Of a stretch of 64,000 nucleotides of DNA, positions 3,341 to 30,949 are shown piece after piece. Source of the DNA: Pseudonocardiales bacterium (GTDB lineage: Bacteria > Actinomycetota > Actinomycetes > Mycobacteriales > Pseudonocardiaceae); contig JAHEXI010000005.1 in NCBI GenBank assembly GCA_023252195.1, positions 213,999 through 277,998 of the forward strand, read 5' to 3'. The stretch's first letter is position 1. Each line of letters starts with the position of its first letter. The notes beneath the pieces are model-generated. The model did not search any database. It saw only the letters and a program-made list of their open reading frames with translations, and had not been told where the DNA came from. Both the position numbers and the translations under genes were made by a program.

Positions 3341-4656
3341 GACTGTTCCGATTGGGCCGTCAGCGGAACGATCTCGTCGGGGGAGAAGTACTGGAACCGG
3401 CCCTGCAGCAGCGATAGGTCGGCGCCCGGATCATCATCGAGGGTGACCGCGACATGCGTGTTGCCGTCGACATCGAGCAACACGGCGGCAACGGTGGCAG
3501 TGCGCCCGTCAAGGAACATGTCCTGAGCGTCCGTCCCGTGCAACCGCGGCGTGAGCACCACCTTGCTACCCTTGGCCACCTCGACTCCGGCGACGAGCAC
3601 GCTGTCGGTGTCCGGGTCTACCGAGGAATCCGCGCCGGGATCCCACCACGGCGTGCCTGGAGTGGTGAACGTCTCGACCGGATCCGGCTCACCGGGACTA
3701 CGCGAGGTCCGGGGAGTCTCGCCAAGATATCGGATCGCTCCATGCAGCTTGTCGAGCATCTCCGGCGGCATCGAGTCGACGCGATCCATCAGCTTCCGGG
3801 CGCGCTCGTCAGTGGCCCGCGCTTCGGCCTTCTCCTCATCGGTAAGGGTCATCGTGCGTAACGTGAGAATCTCATCGATCTCGGTGCCATCGAACAAGTC
3901 GCCGGGGCTTTCCGGCGCAATCGTTGGATAGTCGTAAAGAATGATCGGCGAGATCAGGAAAACGTCCCGGCTTCCTGGTTCGCCGATCATCACTGGCCAG
4001 GTGCGTTCGTTGCGACAGCTCTTGACGGCGGGTTTTGCCCACTCCGGCGGGTCGAGCAACGAGATGAACTCCCCGTCGGTGACCGCCAGCACCGTATGGG
4101 CAGCGATCAGCGAGTGCCGCAGCGCCACGTGTCGAGCTGCCTCCGCATCCACCCACGGCGCGGTGTTAATGACCTCGAGGCTGAGGTGCAAAATGCCGTA
4201 CGGGCCTTCCAGCCGCTGTCCGGACAGCCGGACCTCGCCGGTCAGCGGCCACCGCTGGCGGGTGATGCCGTCGGTGGTCTCCGTACCGCCAGGGATGGTG
4301 ACCGGGATCACCTGTTCGCTCTCCAACAACTCCGCTACTGATACCACGGAGTCGATCTCGTGCTCCTCCGCCTCGTCGAATTCGGGAACTGGTCCGTCTC
4401 CACCACTGCGGTGCTGCAATTGGAGGAATCGCAACCGGATGTGCAGTACCGGGTCGGCGCCGGGCTCCAGCAAGAACTCGCTGTGTGAGCTGGCGTGCTC
4501 ACCATGCCCGGCTGCGGCATAGGCGGAGGGCATCAGCACCCCCCACTGCCAGCGGATCTGATTCTTGGCTGCCGACGCCCGGTACGGATAGAGCAAGTAC
4601 CCCTCGTAGAGGACGGCGTCGGCCACCTCCCGGGCGATGTCCATCGGAGCTGTCAT
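3337..4656 (-). CDS. Hydrogenase-operon protein of unknown function (439 aa)
   Basis: I do not recognise a named domain. The protein is soluble, acidic and has no signal peptide. Residues 1-280 are a mixed alpha/beta region (YEGYLLYPYRASAAKNQ, RWQWGVLMPSAYA, FLISPIILYDYPTIAPES). A charged linker with ARATDERARKLMDRVD follows, and the C-terminal 90 residues look like a small beta barrel (SKVVLTPRLHG, DGRTATVAAVLLDVDGN, GRFQYFSPDEIVPL). It is coupled to the protease gene (four-base overlap) and abuts the DUF6084 gene. That fits the set of conserved accessory genes known in actinobacterial group 1h hydrogenase loci. An assembly or electron-transfer role is inference from position only. Confidence 0.85.
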   Translation of the reverse strand: MTAPMDIAREVADAVLYEGYLLYPYRASAAKNQIRWQWGVLMPSAYAAAGHGEHASSHSEFLLEPGADPVLHIRLRFLQLQHRSGGDGPVPEFDEAEEHEIDSVVSVAELLESEQVIPVTIPGGTETTDGITRQRWPLTGEVRLSGQRLEGPYGILHLSLEVINTAPWVDAEAARHVALRHSLIAAHTVLAVTDGEFISLLDPPEWAKPAVKSCRNERTWPVMIGEPGSRDVFLISPIILYDYPTIAPESPGDLFDGTEIDEILTLRTMTLTDEEKAEARATDERARKLMDRVDSMPPEMLDKLHGAIRYLGETPRTSRSPGEPDPVETFTTPGTPWWDPGADSSVDPDTDSVLVAGVEVAKGSKVVLTPRLHGTDAQDMFLDGRTATVAAVLLDVDGNTHVAVTLDDDPGADLSLLQGRFQYFSPDEIVPLTAQSEQS

Positions 4657-5325
4657 TCAGCCTCCCTCCCCTGTGCTTTCGCCGATCACAGTGCGCTCGC
4701 GGGCCGTGTCCAGTACGGCGATGATGGCATCGTCCCAAGTAGGCAACGCGCGCGCGGCCCGAAAGTCGGCTAGGGCGTCGATCGTGTCTCGACGCAACCG
4801 CAGCCATCCGCTGCCGGGGAAGTGGATGTCCATCATCTCACGCCACACCGCTACGGGCATTTTATATCGGGTCTCGGCGTGCCACGGCACCTGCTCGATC
4901 CACATCCCATTCTCGCCGTCACCGAAAATAGTGCCGCTGAACAACAGGATAAACGGGACCTCGCCGTCTTCGAGGGCGTGAAAATATCGTCCTGCGGTGA
5001 CCTCCATGTCATAGCTGCACGGGACGGTTATGTCCAGCTCAATCCAGTCGTTGAAGCTGGGAACAACCGTCGAGGTGTTGGCGAACTGGAATGGTTTGAC
5101 CGTGTCACCCCAGCGTCCGCGCTCGCCGAACAACTCGAGCAGCCGCGCTGCCTCTTTGTCGCCGTATCCACGGCGCGCCGGCTCGATCCTGATCTGGCAA
5201 CGCAGCGCGATGGCGCGCACTCGTTGCCCGCCCGCGGCGCCGACCCGCAGCCGGAACAGCAACGTGGGCGCCGCGGCGTAGCGCTCGGGTTGTACATCGA
5301 GGCAGGTGAAGGACAGCTCAGCCAT
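4657..5325 (-). CDS. DUF6084-type hydrogenase accessory protein
   Basis: The 222-aa product begins MAELSFTCLDVQPERYAAAP. The first 110 residues look like a beta-sandwich (PTLLFRLRVGAAGG, IALRCQIRIEPARRGY) and the family-like block NGMWIEQVPWHAETRYKMPV lies in the second half. The ATG at 5325 was chosen because it overlaps the end of the upstream gene by eight bases and because the sequence before it in this frame is an unconserved, arginine-rich shadow. I associate this protein with DUF6084, which travels with DUF5947 and group 1h hydrogenases. The family name is from memory. The biochemical role is unknown. Confidence 0.8.
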   Translation of the reverse strand: MAELSFTCLDVQPERYAAAPTLLFRLRVGAAGGQRVRAIALRCQIRIEPARRGYGDKEAARLLELFGERGRWGDTVKPFQFANTSTVVPSFNDWIELDITVPCSYDMEVTAGRYFHALEDGEVPFILLFSGTIFGDGENGMWIEQVPWHAETRYKMPVAVWREMMDIHFPGSGWLRLRRDTIDALADFRAARALPTWDDAIIAVLDTARERTVIGESTGEGG

Positions 5326-5956: not shown

Positions 5957-6864
5957 GACACCGCCTGCGCGGGGACCGCAATGCGAACCCCGCCATTCTC
6001 GGTTAATAGCGGCAGCGGATCGAGGTGCACTCCAGCCGCCTTGTCGCTTCCACTCGAGCCACGACCGGCTCGGACCACGTTGTAACGCTGCGCACAGCCG
6101 GGGCAGGCCAGCAAGGCCCCGTCCAGCTCCGCACCGGTCAGGCCGGAGCCGCACACCGCGCAGCGGTCAGCGTAGGCGTACAGACTCCCTGCCACGTTGC
6201 ACACCACCGCTGCGGTGTCGCCAACCAGCATGGGAACCAGCTGACCCTGACCGAGTCCCTCGATCCCGTCGACCTGAACCCACGTCGCAGCCGGTGCCTC
6301 CGGCTGCTTGCTCACCTGCATCAACGGGAGCATGGTGGCCCCTTCGGGCACTGCTCCCGCAGTGAGCGGCGAAGCTGGATCGGGCGCGACGCCCTCCACC
6401 TCCACCTTGGTGACTTCCGGAGCGACGTCCTCAATTCCCTTCTCGATCGCCATCTTGACGGTGAGGGCCGAGGACGGGCAGCCATCACAGCTGCCCGCCA
6501 ACCGCAATCGCACGGTGCCGTCGGGGTCCAGCCCGAGGTACTCGACGTCGCCGGCATGCGAGCCCAGGTAAGGCCGGACCCGCTCCAGCGCGGCGAGGAC
6601 ACGCTCCTCGGTGCTCTGCGGGTGCAGGTCGTGCAGCACCAACAGCCCCGCCACCATCTTGTCGGCCAGCAGCGGAGTGACGGCCTGCTCGTCGAGCAAA
6701 TCCAGGATGCGGGCCAAGCCCGCACCATAGAAGTCAACGAGCAGACCGACCAGCTCCTCGGCTCGCCCGGCGGTAGTGGGGTCGGAGGTCGAGGCGAACT
6801 GCGCGAGCAGCGCCTCGACCCTTTCCCCAACCGCCTGGATATCCGGTGTGTTACTAGTGGGCAC
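5953..6864 (-). CDS. NifU-like / Rieske-like fusion protein of the hydrogenase operon
   Basis: The 303-aa protein has three parts. An N-terminal helical region covers residues 1-90. A NifU C-terminal-type domain follows, with the cluster-binding motif GSCDGCPSS near residue 130. The C-terminal domain (about 190-290) has the layout of a Rieske ferredoxin. Its metal motif is CAVCGSG followed by CPGCAQRYN, so both histidines expected of a true Rieske site (CxH...CxxH) are cysteines. The fold may therefore hold a rubredoxin-type iron, zinc or an all-cysteine cluster. The gene lies 3 bases after hhyL. In mycobacteria a protein at this position is thought to carry electrons between Hhy and the respiratory chain. 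The exact role here is inferred. Confidence 0.85.
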   Translation of the reverse strand: MPTSNTPDIQAVGERVEALLAQFASTSDPTTAGRAEELVGLLVDFYGAGLARILDLLDEQAVTPLLADKMVAGLLVLHDLHPQSTEERVLAALERVRPYLGSHAGDVEYLGLDPDGTVRLRLAGSCDGCPSSALTVKMAIEKGIEDVAPEVTKVEVEGVAPDPASPLTAGAVPEGATMLPLMQVSKQPEAPAATWVQVDGIEGLGQGQLVPMLVGDTAAVVCNVAGSLYAYADRCAVCGSGLTGAELDGALLACPGCAQRYNVVRAGRGSSGSDKAAGVHLDPLPLLTENGGVRIAVPAQAVS

Positions 6865-6867
6865 GAC

Positions 6868-8682
6868 TCATCCGCCAGTCGTCGAGAACGCGTGTGGCGT
6901 GTGCAACCGCTGCAACTCCTGGCCCTGTCCGAGATACATGTGGACGCCACAGGGCAGGCATGGGTCGAAGCTGCGTACCGCACGCATGATGTCGATGCCC
7001 TTGAAGCTCGCCGGTGGGTTCTCCTCGAAGATCGGCGTGTTCTGCACGGCGTCCTCGTAGGGGCCCGGCGTTCCGTAGATATCGCGGACGCTGCCGTTCC
7101 ACGGTGTGGGCGGGTAGGGGTGGTAGTTGGCGATCTTGCCGTTCTGGATCACCATGTGGTGCGAAAGCACACCACGGACCGCCTCAGTCCATCCACAGCT
7201 GATTGCTTCCTTGGGCACCTTGAAGGGCTCCCAGGTCTTGGTGCGACCAGCACGCACCTCGGCCAGGGCCTTCTCGATGAAGTGCAGCGCGAGTGCTGCG
7301 GAGTAGGCCTGGAAGTAGGTCCGGGCCCGGTTACGCTCGATCGCGTTGGACAGCGGCTTGCCAGCCTTGTCGTACGGGATCTTCCACTCGAACGAGACCG
7401 CAGGCTTGGTCATCGTCCGTGGCAGGTTGATCTGCACGCTGTGGCCGGTGGCCTTGACGGTGCCGGTGTCGACCAATCCGGACAGAGCCGTCGGCCACAA
7501 CCGGGCGAGCGGTCCGCCGCCGGTGTCCAGGGCGAGGTAATCCTTGCCGTCGAACCACCGAGGCGACATGGTCCAGCTGTAGGCGCCGGCGAAGTCGCGC
7601 TTGGCCGGCCGCGGGATGGTGTGCTGGTTCCACGGGTGCTTCCGGTCGACCGGGTTACCCAGGGGGTCCTTGTCGACGAAGATCTCCTGGCCATCCCAGT
7701 CCTCGTAGAACGAGGAACCGAGCAGGATTCGCAACCCGAGGTTGATCTTCACCAGGTCATTGGTGACCAGCTTGCCGTCCACCACCACACCGGGGGTGAC
7801 GAACATCTTCCGGCCCCAGTTGGTCATGTTGCGGTAGTTGAAGTCGCAGTGCTCCGGGTCGTTGAGAGCGCCCCAGCAACCCAGCAGCACCCGGCGCCGA
7901 CCAACTTCTTCATAACCAGGCATCGCGTCATAGAAGAAGCTGAACAGATCGTCGTGCAGCGGAACGATCCGCTTGCAGAACTCCACATACCGCATGAGGC
8001 GGGTGTAGTAGTCGGTGAACAGCTGATGGGTGGCAACGGTGCCGACGCCGCCCGGGTACAGCGTGGAGGGGTGCACGTGGCGACCCTCCATCAGGCAGAA
8101 CATCTCTCGCGTGTAGCGGGAGACCTGGAGTGCCTCGCGGTAGAATTCACCCGAGAGCGGGTTGAGCGCCCGCATGATGTCGCCGATGTACTTGTACCCG
8201 TGGGCCTCGGACTGCGGCGCCGGCGTGCGGTTGGCCAGGTCCAGAACACCGGGGTTGGTCTCGGCGACCATCTTCTCGCAGTAGTCGACCCCGACCAGGT
8301 TCTCCTGGAAGATGTTGTGGTCGAACATGTACTCGGCGGCTTCGCCGAGGTTGATTACCCATTCACCGAGGTGCGGCGGCGCTACCCCATACGCCATGTT
8401 CTGGTTGTAAACCGAACAGGTGGCGTGGTTGTCACCGCAGATCCCACAGATACGACTGGTGATGAAGTGGGCGTCGCGTGGGTCTTTACCCTTCATGAAG
8501 ATGGAGTACCCACGGAAGACCGATGAGGAGCTGTGGCACTCAGCCACTGTCTTTGCCCCGAAATCGATCTTGGTGTAGATACCGAGACTGCCGACGATCC
8601 GGGTTACCGGATCCCACACCATCTCGGTGAGTTGCCCTTTTGCAGCTCCTGCGCTGCCATGTCTTGGAGCGGTGGTTGTCAT
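6868..8682 (-). CDS. hhyL: Group 1h [NiFe] hydrogenase large subunit
   Basis: The catalytic subunit of a high-affinity, oxygen-tolerant uptake hydrogenase oxidises H2 at trace levels and passes electrons to HhyS. The 604-aa protein has the L1 motif RICGICG at residues 77-83 (C79, C82) and the L2 motif DPCLPCGVHM at 573-582 (C575, C578). Together these four cysteines bind Ni and Fe. About 22 residues follow the L2 histidine (ending PHAFSTTGG) and form the presumed peptide for HupD to remove. The N-terminal block MVWDPVTRIVGSLGIYTKID is characteristic of the actinobacterial type. It lies 32 bases downstream of hhyS. Confidence 0.97.
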   Translation of the reverse strand: MTTTAPRHGSAGAAKGQLTEMVWDPVTRIVGSLGIYTKIDFGAKTVAECHSSSSVFRGYSIFMKGKDPRDAHFITSRICGICGDNHATCSVYNQNMAYGVAPPHLGEWVINLGEAAEYMFDHNIFQENLVGVDYCEKMVAETNPGVLDLANRTPAPQSEAHGYKYIGDIMRALNPLSGEFYREALQVSRYTREMFCLMEGRHVHPSTLYPGGVGTVATHQLFTDYYTRLMRYVEFCKRIVPLHDDLFSFFYDAMPGYEEVGRRRVLLGCWGALNDPEHCDFNYRNMTNWGRKMFVTPGVVVDGKLVTNDLVKINLGLRILLGSSFYEDWDGQEIFVDKDPLGNPVDRKHPWNQHTIPRPAKRDFAGAYSWTMSPRWFDGKDYLALDTGGGPLARLWPTALSGLVDTGTVKATGHSVQINLPRTMTKPAVSFEWKIPYDKAGKPLSNAIERNRARTYFQAYSAALALHFIEKALAEVRAGRTKTWEPFKVPKEAISCGWTEAVRGVLSHHMVIQNGKIANYHPYPPTPWNGSVRDIYGTPGPYEDAVQNTPIFEENPPASFKGIDIMRAVRSFDPCLPCGVHMYLGQGQELQRLHTPHAFSTTGG

Positions 8683-10838: not shown

Positions 10839-11488
10839 GCGACTGCCCTCGGCTCTAGCAGGTCAGGATGTTGGAAGAACACGTGAACCAGCTCCCACAG
10901 CACGTGGTACGCGGTAACGTGCACTTCCTTGATCACTCGCGGGTCGCCGGAATGAGCTACCACGATGTGGTCGGCGGCCTCTAGCGACACGATGCGGCCG
11001 CCGTCACCGCCGACGAGCGCGATCGTGAGCATGCCCAACTCCCGGGCAGTCGCCAATCCACGCAGCACGCTAGTGCAGTTGCCGTCAGGCGAGATGCCCA
11101 GCGCAATATCGCGGGCGGAAGCGAGGTGGCTCAGCTGGTGGGCGAAGATCTCGTCGAAGCCTTCCGCACCGGCGATTCCGGTCACCGTCGCGACATCAGC
11201 GGTCAGCGAGATCGCCGGCAACGCACGCTTGCCCATGACCACCGGGTGGACGAACTCCACCACGACGTGCTGGGCGTCCGTGCTCGCTGTGCCGTTGCCG
11301 AAGACGACGAGAGTGCCTCCACGGTGGAAGCGAACGGCCATGGCGTGGCATGCGGTGGCGATGGCCCCGGCGTCGTCCGCGAGTTGGTATAGGGGTAGTA
11401 CCCGCCGCTCGAACAAATCCGCGGCGGTGGCGGTCCCGGCAGCTGCCCTGGACACGCCGCACACCTCCCGACCTGGTTGGCCATGCAC
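10835..11488 (-). CDS. SIS-domain protein with degenerate sugar-binding motifs; first gene of the hydrogenase operon
   Basis: The 217-aa protein is a paralogue of the SIS protein at 9790-10578 (shared FFxGNG...D...FVHP...LTADVA...FDEIFAHQL pattern). Key loops differ: GNGTASTDAQ replaces GNGGSCTDAA and GISPDGNCTS replaces GLSTSGNSTN, which weakens the Ser/Thr-rich phosphate-binding sites. A regulatory or structural partner of the intact SIS protein is a reasonable inference. The GTG at 11488 is the longest start. A GTG 33 bases later (VSRAAAG) is possible. This is the most upstream gene of the minus-strand operon. The promoter should lie in 11489-11790. Confidence 0.8.
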   Translation of the reverse strand: MHGQPGREVCGVSRAAAGTATAADLFERRVLPLYQLADDAGAIATACHAMAVRFHRGGTLVVFGNGTASTDAQHVVVEFVHPVVMGKRALPAISLTADVATVTGIAGAEGFDEIFAHQLSHLASARDIALGISPDGNCTSVLRGLATARELGMLTIALVGGDGGRIVSLEAADHIVVAHSGDPRVIKEVHVTAYHVLWELVHVFFQHPDLLEPRAVA

Positions 11489-11790
11489 GTGAGTGACATC
11501 ACGATAGGGGTGCCTGGATCAATGAGCAAGGGCCGCACCGCCAGACGTGTAACCCAGATTTCATCAGACCGCCGCGTTGCGGCACGCACAGGACCCTTGG
11601 TTGCCTGCCATACTGGTCGTATCGCTCAAATCGGACATTCAGCGGACTAACATGCGGGTTCGCTGATGTTGATCTAGACGCAGTGCGCGCATTGGGGAGC
11701 GAAGTCGCCGGGTCAGGCGTTACTGGATATGAGGCGACATGTGGGAGTGCGCATCGCGCTCGATCCGTTCGACCCGAGGGAGTTCGTGCC
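11489..11790. promoter_or_regulatory. Divergent promoter region between the hydrogenase operon and fxsA
   Basis: This 302-base gap separates two divergently transcribed units, so it must carry the promoter of the 11-kb hydrogenase operon (leftward) and that of fxsA (rightward). It is noticeably more AT-rich between about 11560 and 11700 than the flanking genes. I could not identify convincing -35/-10 boxes, an operator palindrome or an RNA structure by eye. Confidence 0.5.
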
Positions 11791-26445: not shown

Positions 26446-27721
<1,276 letters not shown>

Positions 27722-28162
27722 ACTCGAAGGATAAGACCAGTGGATGCAGCCGATGCACGCCGTTGGTGCCGCTATCCAGCGGGTCGCAGGATGAGATAAA
27801 TTGCACTCCACAGCAGCTTCATGGGGTGTTTGGGTCAGCTCGAAATGTTGCGAAAAATCGCCCTGATCGCGACGATACTAAATGAGCTCGTGCGAAGCAG
27901 CTAATGTGTGATAACACAGAGGGTAGTCCTGGCCTCACCGTTGCGCGTAGGTACTAAGCGTCTAGCACCTACGTCACCGTTGCGGTTGGCTACGTATTCG
28001 AAAAACGACTCCCGGCTACGTAGCCAACCGGGAAGATTTACGTGCGGCTACTGATTGCCCGTGGCGGTACACCTGGGCAGGGTATGGGAAGCCGAATCGG
28101 GAATGCCACCGATGCGGTGCGTTTCCCGGCTAGTACCGGGACGACTTTCCTAGGAGGATTTC
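27722..28162 (+). promoter_or_regulatory. Hairpin-rich leader upstream of the glycine-rich peptide gene
   Basis: This 441-base gap carries no gene that I can support. It is less GC-rich than its surroundings to about 27930. It then contains two stem-loops, each preceded by TCACCGTTGCG (27935-28030), and further on a short hairpin CCCGG-ctagta-CCGGG at 28125-28140, just before the AGGAGG (28152-28157) of the peptide gene. A structured 5' leader, repeated protein-binding sites or a small RNA are all possible. Confidence 0.5.
27935..28030. repeat. Two repeat-plus-hairpin modules
   Basis: TCACCGTTGCG occurs at 27935-27945 and again at 27974-27984. The first copy is followed by a hairpin (GTAGGTACTA at 27947 paired with TAGCACCTAC ending 27972, 9 of 10 bases). 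The second leads into a perfect 14-bp inverted repeat, CGGTTGGCTACGTA (27983-27996) and TACGTAGCCAACCG (28017-28030), with a 20-base loop. The same layout twice in 96 bases is unlikely to be chance. Confidence 0.75.
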
Positions 28163-28438
28163 ATGTCTGACGCAGTGGGTTTTGTGGAGATCGACGGGCA
28201 GCGCGTGGAGCTGCTGCCGGCCCGCACCGTGATGTCGATGTTCAGCGCCGGTGGCGTGGGTGGCGGCCGTGGCGGCAACGGCGGCGTGGGCGGCGCGGGC
28301 GGCGTAGGCCGCGGTGGCCTCGGTATCAACGCCCTGAACATCAACGCGTTTGGTGACCAAACCAACAGTGCCGGTGACGGCACCGGTGGCGCGGGCGGCA
28401 GCGCCGCCGGCGGTGCCGGCGGGTCTGTGTCCGGCTGA
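28163..28438 (+). CDS. Short glycine-rich peptide of unknown function (possible peptide precursor)
   Basis: The 91-aa product has a perfect ribosome binding site (AGGAGG, 5 bases before ATG). Residues 1-27 form a non-repetitive, charged head: MSDAVGFVEIDGQRVELLPA then RTVMSMF. Residues 28-91 are about 45% glycine in GG-x repeats (GGNGGVGGAGGVGRGG; GGAGGSAAGGAGG) split by the asparagine-rich island INALNINAFGDQTN. There is no signal peptide, TM segment or cysteine. The repeats recall mycobacterial PGRS regions, but no PE domain is present. A conserved leader followed by a low-complexity core is also the look of a ribosomally made, modified peptide. A flavin oxidase gene follows 305 bases downstream. 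I do not know the function. Confidence 0.8.
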   Translation: MSDAVGFVEIDGQRVELLPARTVMSMFSAGGVGGGRGGNGGVGGAGGVGRGGLGINALNINAFGDQTNSAGDGTGGAGGSAAGGAGGSVSG

Positions 28439-28743
28439 TAAGTCGCGGCGGTGCCGTTGGATGACGACGTACGGTGCCGTTGGCCAGGGAGGGGTGGTTT
28501 CGACGCGGCCACCTCTCCCGTCATCATCGAATTACGGAGTATCGGCAGGAGGCGATTGCAATGTGCGATTGTCAGTGTCTCCGGTCGGGCTCTGCAGTCG
28601 AGGGACGTGTGCATCAACCCTACTAAAAATGATGGTGGCCGCAGCCTGAGCAGCGCTGGCAGGCTCGCTAAGGTCCCGGCAATCCAACTGAAGCTGCACC
28701 GGGCGAGCGCCGGGTGCTCACCCGAAGCCCTGGAGTTGTTTTC
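28439..28743. other. Gap between the glycine-rich peptide and the flavin oxidase
   Basis: An open frame of 98 codons (28451-28747, GTG start) crosses this gap but lacks a ribosome binding site, runs into the oxidase start and has an arginine- and cysteine-rich, non-protein-like sequence, so I do not call it. No clear terminator is seen after the peptide gene, which leaves co-transcription with the oxidase possible. Confidence 0.4.
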
Positions 28744-30141
28744 ATGATGCAAGTCTCGTCTCATCATCTGGAAGCACTTCGCACGGTGCTGGCCGGGAAA
28801 GTGATCACGGCAGAGGATGCCGACTATGACACCGCGCGCATACAGTGGAATAACGACATCGATCGCAATCCGTTAGCAATCGCTCGCTGCGCGTCGCCGG
28901 CCGACGTCGCGGCGGCGCTCACCTTCGCCCGGGAACAAGAATTGGAAATCTCGGTTCGTGGCGGGGGCCATGCCTTCTCCGGGACCGGTGTTTGTGATGA
29001 CGGACTGATGATCGACCTCAGCGCGATGCGCCAGGTCTCGATCAGTCCTGACGCTCGCCTGGCCCGGGTGGGCGGCGGTGCCACCGTGGCAGAGTTGGAC
29101 GCGGCAACCCAGGTGCATGGGCTCGCGGTACCCACCGGAGTAATCAGCCACACTGGCGTCGGTGGACTGACACTCGGTGGCGGCATCGGATGGCTGACCC
29201 ACAAGGCGGGATTGACCATCGACAACTTGGTCTCAGCAGAGGTAGTGCTCGCCGACGGCCGCTGCGTGCATACCTCCCTTAACGAGCACGCGGATCTGTT
29301 CTGGGCGCTACGCGGCGGGGGCGGCAACTTCGGCGTCGTCACGACTTTCGAATACCAGCTGCTCCCGGTCGGACCAGAGGTGCACTTGGGATTGTTTTTC
29401 TGGGGGATGGATCAGGGCGAGCAGGTGCTGCGGTTGGCCCGCGACGTCGTCCCGAACCTGCCCGGCGAGGCCGGCGCTCAGATCGCGATTGGGCTCAACG
29501 CCCCGCCCGCACCGTTCGTACCTCCGCAATACCACTTCACCCCCGGCTATCTGCTCATCATCGTCGGGTTTTCCTCCGCGGAGGAACACGCCCGCATCGT
29601 CGCGCCGATTCGTGACGCGCTTCCGCCACTGTTCGAGCTCGTCACCCCGATCCCGTATGTGGCATTGCAGCGAACGCTCGATGAGACCGCGCCGTGGGGA
29701 CTCCTCGGCTATCAGGAAGTGATCTACCTCGACGAGCTGACTGACGACGTGATCGCGCGGATCGTGACTCAGCTGCCGGCAAAGCGTTCGCCAATGAGCT
29801 TCTGCCTGATTTTCCGGCTGGACGGAGCATATTCGGCGGTCAGCGACGAGCAGACGGCCTTCGGCGGTCGACGCTCACCGCGATATGTCGTCAACATCGC
29901 CGGCATCGGGGCCAGCCCCGCGGTCTTGAACGCTGACCGGGCCTGGGTCCGGTCGTTGTGGAGCGCGTTGCGGCCCTTCGCCAGAGACTCCGGTGGCTAC
30001 GTGAACTCGATGACGGAAAACGACGACGACCGGGTGCGGGCGTCTTACGGCCCGACCAAGTATGGGCGGCTGGCCCGGATCAAGGCCAAGTATGACCCGG
30101 CCAACGTCTTTCACCTCAACGCCAACATCAAACCCGCCTGA
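28744..30141 (+). CDS. FAD-linked oxidase, berberine-bridge-enzyme type
   Basis: The 465-aa protein has the PCMH flavin fold: VRGGGHAFSGTGVCDDGLMI near residue 78, with the histidine that usually binds FAD covalently, GVGGLTLGGGIGWLTHKAG near 140, and DLFWALRGGGGNFGVVTTFE near 186. It ends with the BBE C-terminal helix motif YGRLARIKAKYDPANVFHLN. The second covalent Cys of bicovalent enzymes is replaced by Val in GVGG, so a single covalent link is expected. Such enzymes oxidise alcohols, sugars or aromatic and peptide-like intermediates in secondary metabolism. The ATG at 28744 is preceded by GGAG. An ATG three bases later is equally possible. Confidence 0.88.
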   Translation: MMQVSSHHLEALRTVLAGKVITAEDADYDTARIQWNNDIDRNPLAIARCASPADVAAALTFAREQELEISVRGGGHAFSGTGVCDDGLMIDLSAMRQVSISPDARLARVGGGATVAELDAATQVHGLAVPTGVISHTGVGGLTLGGGIGWLTHKAGLTIDNLVSAEVVLADGRCVHTSLNEHADLFWALRGGGGNFGVVTTFEYQLLPVGPEVHLGLFFWGMDQGEQVLRLARDVVPNLPGEAGAQIAIGLNAPPAPFVPPQYHFTPGYLLIIVGFSSAEEHARIVAPIRDALPPLFELVTPIPYVALQRTLDETAPWGLLGYQEVIYLDELTDDVIARIVTQLPAKRSPMSFCLIFRLDGAYSAVSDEQTAFGGRRSPRYVVNIAGIGASPAVLNADRAWVRSLWSALRPFARDSGGYVNSMTENDDDRVRASYGPTKYGRLARIKAKYDPANVFHLNANIKPA

Positions 30142-30268
30142 ACGTCCGGGCGTAAGCCCGTCGAGCACATGACCTCCAGCGGCGATCCTGCCGAATCCGA
30201 CGGCTGCCGGGCGACGGTACGCTTGGCACCGGGGCGCGGCGTTGCATCGCATCTGGAGGAGATCGGCC

Positions 30269-30949
30269 GTGACTGACCTGGCCCGCACGCCACCCCGCGG
30301 ACTGCGCACCCGCCTGTTGGTCACAGTGCTCGTGTTGGGCGTAATGTGCGTCGCTGCCGTCGTGCTGCCGGTACCCAGCCCATTACAAGTGCGCGACTGG
30401 TCGCAGTCGGTCGGCATCGCGGCGCCATTGCTGTTCCTGCTCGGACACACCCTGGCGACGGTGGCGCCGGTCCCCCGTACGGTGTTCACCCTCGCTGCCG
30501 GGTTGCTCTTCGGACCGGTGCTGGGGGTAGGCCTCTCGCTGGTGGCGACGGTGCTGTCCGCGGTGCTGGCCTTCGGTCTCGTTCGCCGGTTAGCTCGCGG
30601 ATTTGTCTTGCCTCATCTGGATCACAACTTGCTGCGGGCGGTCGATGCGCGGTTGCGCCGTCGAGGCTGGCTTGCGGTGGCGTCACTGAGGTTGATCCCG
30701 GCAGTGCCCTTCTCGGTGCTCAATTACTGCAGCGCGCTGTCGTCGATCCGGTTCCGGCATTATCTGGCCGGTACCGTGGGCGTCCTGCCTGGCACGGTAG
30801 CGGTGGTGGTGCTCGGCGACGCACTCACTGGAACTACCTCGCCGGCCTTGCTCGCGATTTCGCTGACCGGCGCGGCGATCGGAATGATTGGACTGATCGC
30901 CGAGGCCCGCTCCCCCATCTCGGTCACCCAGGCGAAGGCTGCACCATGA
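30269..30949 (+). CDS. TVP38/TMEM64 (DedA-like) membrane protein
   Basis: The 226-aa integral membrane protein shows the SNARE-associated/DedA fold: a first TM (LLVTVLVLGVMCVAAVVLPV), then FTLAAGLLFGPVLGVGLSLV with the re-entrant loop, VRRLARGF, SLRLIPAVPFSVLNYCSAL with the conserved R-x-x-P, and a final YLAGTVGVLPGTVAVVVLGD. Such proteins are thought to move lipids across the membrane. The GTG at 30269 has a strong GGAGGAG before it. It overlaps the amidase gene by four bases. Confidence 0.9.
   Translation: MTDLARTPPRGLRTRLLVTVLVLGVMCVAAVVLPVPSPLQVRDWSQSVGIAAPLLFLLGHTLATVAPVPRTVFTLAAGLLFGPVLGVGLSLVATVLSAVLAFGLVRRLARGFVLPHLDHNLLRAVDARLRRRGWLAVASLRLIPAVPFSVLNYCSALSSIRFRHYLAGTVGVLPGTVAVVVLGDALTGTTSPALLAISLTGAAIGMIGLIAEARSPISVTQAKAAP

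Follow-up and report, generated by a model that had tools for sequence, protein, structure and literature searches.

The peptide gene considered here lies in a 64,000-nucleotide (nt) stretch of DNA (hereafter the window) from a Pseudonocardiales bacterium of the family Pseudonocardiaceae (GenBank assembly GCA_023252195.1, contig JAHEXI010000005.1, positions 213,999 to 277,998). The encoded peptide of 91 amino acids (aa) consists of a conserved 27-residue head (core VELLPARTV) and a glycine-rich tail, and it belongs to a multi-copy family whose carriers also encode a membrane protease. Site-2 proteases fused to a recognition element (RRE) of ribosomally synthesized and post-translationally modified peptides (RiPPs) end RiPP pathways by removing the leader. 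With moderate confidence, we propose that the family comprises leader-tagged, mostly glycine-rich polypeptides that are processed in trans by such an RRE-protease and freed outside the cell. The window peptide would be one substrate among these dispersed polypeptides. The head would be read by the RRE-like N-terminal domain of an intramembrane site-2-type metalloprotease, which is encoded after a four-copy array of the family (G000:C5) and again beside another head copy (C44). The protease would remove the head and release the variable tail toward the cell surface, where the freed tail would most likely act as an extracellular polypeptide. The gene and its ribosome-binding site are located as follows.

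28163..28438, + strand: 91-aa leader-tagged glycine-rich peptide open reading frame (ORF), ATG start, head at residues 1-27
28153..28158, + strand: ribosome-binding site GGAGGA, read from the sequence

The head family and its membrane protease

The ORF has all the features first described for it: a ribosome-binding site (AGGAGGA ends 4 nt upstream of the ATG), a head that terminates in RTVMSMF and a GGx tail interrupted by an Asn-containing island (GINALNINAFGDQTNSAGDG). The C-terminus reads SVSG. Compared pairwise with seven orthologs, the ratio of nonsynonymous to synonymous substitution rates (dN/dS) is 0.11-0.39 for the tail and, for the head with its few sites, 0.14-0.74 in six orthologs and 1.2 in one. 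By these ratios, the ORF behaves as a genuine gene. The peptide matched nothing in Pfam (E ≤ 1), NCBIfam or PDB sequence searches, nor in a plasmid collection searched in protein mode. Its AlphaFold prediction (26 rows) is of low confidence (mean predicted local distance difference test score of 44), with a pair of strands at residues 6-10 and 13-17 as the sole feature.

The original prediction regarded the peptide as an orphan, a description that we dropped because the head family is multi-copy. A search of its own genome (4.74 Mb, 48 contigs) with the peptide returned 22 rows at E ≤ 1, of which two represent one place and the last has an E of 0.14. With a head-only profile (A1) built from 18 own-genome copies, 21 head matches were found in this genome at E ≤ 1e-4, and 26, 20, 8, 18, 11, 5, 14, 17, 20, and 15 in G001 to G010, respectively. 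Heads are thus present in 11 of 11 sampled genomes of this uncultured Pseudonocardiales genus (drafts, 87-98% complete), at 5-26 copies each. Two four-copy arrays are found in the own genome (C5:193448-195877 and C31:28585-31043), while the remaining copies are single or paired and have neighbours that look unrelated by eye. Two array paralogues share 85 and 78% identity with the window peptide. The head is rare beyond its family: it was found in 8 of 397 genomes of an order sample at E ≤ 1e-4, 7 of them from the same family, and in 9 of 396 genomes of a phylum sample at E ≤ 0.01, where the own genome alone fell below 1e-5. The named carriers over 47 loci are metagenome-assembled genomes (MAGs) of Pseudonocardiales/Pseudonocardiaceae, one "Actinobacteria bacterium" MAG and Pseudonocardia bannensis. 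No paper on the head family was found in the open-licence literature searched.

Head positions Q13, E16, L17, L18, P19, R21, T22, and S25 are fixed in at least 96% of 117 copies. The tails of the same copies vary from 34 to 99 residues and contain 38.5% Gly and 0.7% Cys, with Cys occurring in 28 of the 117. The C-terminal residues are diverse across 125 listed copies, some rows of which are cut or duplicate. One conserved head over highly diverse tails in several short ORFs is the pattern of RiPP-type precursors. The scanned members matched no Pfam or NCBIfam family above its cut-off.

The gene 325 nt beyond the C5 array encodes a 447-aa membrane protein with the motifs HECGH and RLDGYY, both of which are invariant in 11 protease sequences. 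The best NCBIfam match of the protease is daptide_HExxH (98.6-101.3 bits in three proteases; cut-off 300), with LiaK/YydH second. Among 200 family genomes, 23 contained heads (E ≤ 1e-4) and exactly those 23 contained the protease at 486 bits or more; judging from the handles listed, both surveys sampled the same 200 genomes. In 14 other family genomes, the only protease relative scored at most 343 bits and no head was found at the threshold. In each of the genera g240, g261, and g282, some species have both a head and a high-scoring protease and others have neither. The genes are also adjacent: in 8 of 13 head regions from outside the genus (L090, L131-L135, L140, and L190), a head lies directly before the protease on the same strand; at L090, which is a locus of Pseudonocardia bannensis, two heads do so. 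At C5, genes for a DUF2807 adhesin-like lipoprotein and a LuxR-type regulator come after the protease. Of 21 protease loci compared, 10 have a relative of the lipoprotein and 9 have one of the LuxR/AbsR2-like regulator. In the five displayed genus loci whose start is intact, the lipoprotein gene starts 4 nt beyond the end of the protease frame.

The N-terminal domain of the protease (approximately 110 aa) may be related to PqqD. A profile of this domain (18 rows) matched 20 same-family PqqD sequences with a probability of 84%, an E of 8e-6 and a score of 33.8, compared to 10.0 for the reversed profile and at most 16.5 for 20 column shuffles. In NCBIfam, the 18 N-terminal segments gave weak matches led by RRE-bearing models, including ApyI (8 of 18, best E of 0.0017), the daptide protease (6) and PqqD (2, E of 0.0021), while a second PqqD model, ScmD and three unrelated models matched one segment each. 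On these results, we call the domain RRE-like and regard it as a putative RRE.

Several other observations were made at these loci. In L181 (G421:C1), small ORFs with variant leaders (ELLPxREAL/ELLPxRVAL) are found at 4065-5102, 6755-7039, and 11304-11504, beside lower-scoring protease relatives; the three scanned reached the cut-off of no family in Pfam or NCBIfam. Because the tails of these variant-head ORFs are not glycine-rich, the leader-protease pairing appears to extend beyond glycine-rich products. In L182 (7025-7726) and L185 (6300-6932), an ORF of 211-234 aa (DELAAEGAIALPDKEVYSLLDLNVDLDL...) ends approximately 10 nt before a protease relative and is possibly another precursor type. 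In the head copy by the second protease (L018:7025-7471), a long GDK/AATR tandem repeat includes four unknown residues and is probably an assembly gap or an expanded repeat. In L017 (7081-7600), a head copy is accompanied by a piece of the N-terminal domain of the protease, which looks like a decayed second locus. L132 (9406-10701) and its relatives L131, L133, and L135 encode a secreted-looking protein with GG-rich stretches and no Pfam or NCBIfam match, flanked by divergent head genes.

The cassette around the peptide gene

The elements that surround the window peptide gene are listed below.

27946..28030, no strand: operator-like repeats (putative function) that lie 5' of the inferred -35 and contain a recurring CTACGTA motif
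28055..28083, + strand: promoter-like block TTGCCC - 17 nt - CAGGGT, from conservation in 57 upstream sequences
28097..28112, + strand: small hairpin TCGG...CCGA in the 5' untranslated region (5'-UTR), RNAalifold, 57 sequences
28487..28519, + strand: terminator-like stem-loop GGGAGGGGTGG...CCACCTCTCCC, 11 pairs with one G-U, 3' of the peptide gene

In the promoter-like block, TTGCCC occupies 28055-28060 and CAGGGT occupies 28078-28083, followed by GCCGAATCGGcAATGCC-CCGATGAGGTG and then by the ribosome-binding site. The TTG and CA...T columns are invariant across the 57 aligned upstream sequences, although this apparent invariance is inflated by the choice of sequences: 115 copies with enough sequence were thinned to 78, and the window and 56 of the 78 were aligned, with 22 omitted as aberrant or redundant. 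GGAGGA is found 3-8 nt upstream of the ATG in 99 of the 115 copies. A scan of 27800-30400 for the sigma-70 consensus found no promoter, so that the assignment of the promoter rests on conservation. From this promoter, transcription would be predicted to begin approximately 7 nt past CAGGGT (near 28090).

A sequence-only model (R1) made from the 57 upstream sequences matched the window at 28022-28161 with 80.8 bits, a sequence that is itself among those 57. Among the 150 R1 matches listed from the 11 genomes, 133 precede a listed head by no more than 60 nt, and 130 of these by 1-10 nt; it should be noted that R1 was built partly from the same copies that it recovers. The 17 other listed matches include one head copy (G008:C81), three oxidase-linked cases and one promoter block that has no head gene downstream (L015:7985-8110). 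When R1 was applied to 16 loci, the one clear match was in L147, the sole genus locus in that set, and the 15 outside-genus loci gave three matches of 14.4 bits or less.

Both inverted repeats that had been described as twin leader hairpins exist (27946-27956/27963-27973, 11 nt, 91%; 27983-27996/28017-28030, 14 nt, 100%). Because they are located upstream of TTGCCC/CAGGGT, they would not be transcribed as a leader from the inferred promoter, and the reading of them as a riboswitch or leader RNA was dropped; they are more likely operator DNA. All 11 aligned orthologous regions contain CTACGTAG (in L147 it is shifted downstream, ahead of the oxidase gene), and the earlier CTACGTA copy is exact in 8 of the 11. 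An Rfam scan of the window and the leader region gave no match. The 5'-UTR hairpin has four pairs, one of which is changed on both sides in 7 sequences and is G-U in 16, providing modest support.

At least eight perfect pairs within 120 nt after the stop codon are found in 63 of 113 copies, compared to 4.2% of dinucleotide shuffles. The window copy scores 5 on this measure despite its 11-pair fold, and the terminator-like stem is present in the eight orthologs with an intact peptide. Most copies thus look like self-contained cassettes with a shared promoter-like block, over half of them with a terminator-like stem. We infer that a cassette would consist of operator repeats, promoter, 5' element, ORF, and often a terminator-like stem, and that most cassettes are probably switched on together by a common regulator.

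Known systems and alternative explanations

A number of results weigh against the processing of these peptides by an RRE-protease as proposed above. Five of the 13 outside-genus head regions fetched (L136-L139 and L189) show no protease. The 23 genomes with both head and protease fall in 5 of 46 genera, and their relatedness inflates the count. G421, one of the 14 genomes without a head at threshold, has variant heads by motif search (those of L181) and was not counted as head-bearing. For the N-terminal domain, Pfam gave no PqqD match for the 18 segments at E ≤ 10, a profile search of the PDB placed PqqD (3g2b) sixth with an E of 0.5, behind five unrelated chains, and the whole-protease profile A3 matched PqqD with a probability of only 43% (E of 2.5e-4). 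The selection of upstream sequences counts on the same side, and 24 of the 150 heads listed lack a promoter match among the matches listed.

PE_PGRS proteins are mycobacterial glycine-rich surface proteins that form a multi-copy family, with an N-terminal PE domain and a low-complexity (GGx)n tail. The family described here shares the (GGx)n tail and the multi-copy nature with them, but the window peptide has no PE domain (no Pfam match at E ≤ 1) and the family is linked to an RRE-like protease. The protease domain also shows weak similarity to the YydH/LiaK epipeptide metalloproteases (NF058609; 38-48 bits in five proteases scanned, below the cut-off of 225).

In daptides (PMC10036551), an RRE is fused to the intramembrane site-2 protease MpaP and the precursors have the leader motif ELExMEAP and an invariant C-terminal Thr. 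Both systems have several short ORFs with a shared N-terminal motif beside a site-2 protease, whose N-terminal domain is an RRE in daptides and RRE-like here. The leader here reads AELE/D.Q.VELLPARTV, however, the C-terminal ends are diverse, and the daptide aminotransferase, oxidative decarboxylase and methyltransferase were not recognised among the neighbours scanned at the own array and at a few related loci. The protease here also scores approximately 100 bits against an NCBIfam cut-off of 300, and the tails are glycine-rich, with their many copies per genus genome. The system would work like the leader-removal end of the daptide pathway, but we do not class it as a daptide system.

The prochlorosins (ProcA/ProcM) comprise up to 30 precursors with diverse cores in one strain (PMC6363468), and the family shares with them the many precursors and diverse cores. 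By analogy, enzymes encoded at other sites could convert the dispersed precursors, which have one leader in common, into small bioactive products, as in a diversified RiPP system. Although the single conserved leader over hypervariable cores, the 5-26 copies per genome and the RRE-like protease all fit this explanation, the Gly content of the tails and the rarity of Cys in them argue against it. No lanthionine synthetase was seen among the neighbours scanned, nor was any known RiPP tailoring enzyme recognised in these scans, which covered neighbours at the own array and at a few related loci; no search for such an enzyme was made in the remainder of the genome. We consider such a system unlikely.

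Less probable still is a cytoplasmic or selfish cassette family, in which head and promoter would duplicate as a unit and the tails would have no secreted function. The differing neighbours of the own-genome copies (by eye) and the existence of a headless promoter and decayed copies are in line with it, but the tail is under purifying selection in the orthologs of the window copy and the heads co-occur with the protease; this explanation is accordingly given little weight.

The remaining alternative concerns the gene downstream of the window peptide.

28744..30141, + strand: berberine bridge enzyme (BBE)/PCMH-type flavin adenine dinucleotide (FAD) oxidase, neighbour of the window copy (PF01565, E 2.4e-33; PF08031, E 3.2e-10)

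The FAD-binding (PF01565) and BBE (PF08031) domains are both over cut-off, which establishes the BBE-type oxidase ORF as real. Berberine bridge enzyme binds FAD bicovalently through a His and a Cys. Read by eye, the oxidase has the His motif for flavin attachment (RGGGH), but the position expected for the Cys ligand reads GVISHTGVGG. Because this segment contains no Cys, the FAD of this oxidase is probably mono-covalent. An ortholog of the oxidase (84-100%) is found in 11 of 11 genus genomes, whereas the peptide upstream is intact in 8; G004 and G008 retain a truncated remnant of it, and G006 lacks it. A promoter-like block is retained before the oxidase in all three peptide-loss genomes (R1 scores of 61.1, 60.7, and a partial 33.7 bits). 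Because the block is kept where the intact peptide is lost, the oxidase, which outlives the peptide, may be transcribed from a peptide-type promoter, and co-regulation of the two at the window locus is possible.

The original prediction suggested that the oxidase modifies the peptide or that both serve one pathway. The leader-plus-low-complexity-core design suggested with it agrees with the conserved head, the variable tails and the co-occurring RRE-like protease; tailoring by the oxidase does not fare as well. In its favour are the pair retained in 8 of 11 genomes (including L055 and L082, where no VTT or amidase match stands alongside), the promoter kept before the oxidase after peptide loss, and a second oxidase relative approximately 2.6 kb from two heads at C41 (L016), a proximity that may be fortuitous. 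The head search recovered multi-copy homologues of which the oxidase is not a general neighbour: an oxidase relative (E ≤ 1e-15) was found in only 1 of 13 own-genome regions fetched, that at C41, and the oxidase as a general partner was dropped. Two genes separate the C41 relative from the heads, and this case was set aside as support; L063, L084, and L091, relatives of the C41 locus, carry an oxidase too. Given also that 3 of 11 genomes keep the oxidase but no intact peptide, that the two similar-tailed array paralogues have no oxidase relative in the fetched 17-kb region, that a stem-loop lies between the two genes, and that Cys, Tyr, Trp, His, and Lys are all missing from the tail of the window peptide, tailoring appears unlikely, and this explanation as a whole is the least credible of those considered. 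The oxidase would instead be the neighbour of this single cassette and may share its promoter. Upstream of the peptide, on the - strand at 27202-27811, are broken pieces that resemble a FAD monooxygenase, with 7 stops in the one frame tried.

Implications for the family

A bolder form of the proposal, which we offer tentatively and regard as doubtful, is that a genome-wide regulon of interchangeable cassettes feeds one or two RRE-fused proteases in trans and yields extracellular material from diversified glycine-rich polypeptides. RRE-guided leader removal would then serve to secrete and assemble structural polypeptides instead of small natural products. The putatively RRE-fused site-2 protease described here seems to serve approximately 20 scattered, probably co-regulated, mostly glycine-rich substrates. 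If so, an RRE combined with an intramembrane protease would constitute a general device for export by tag reading, and most substrates would escape genome mining that is limited to the neighbourhood of the enzyme. Cultivated Pseudonocardia would offer testable substrates of this family, which is unnamed in the Pfam and NCBIfam collections searched.

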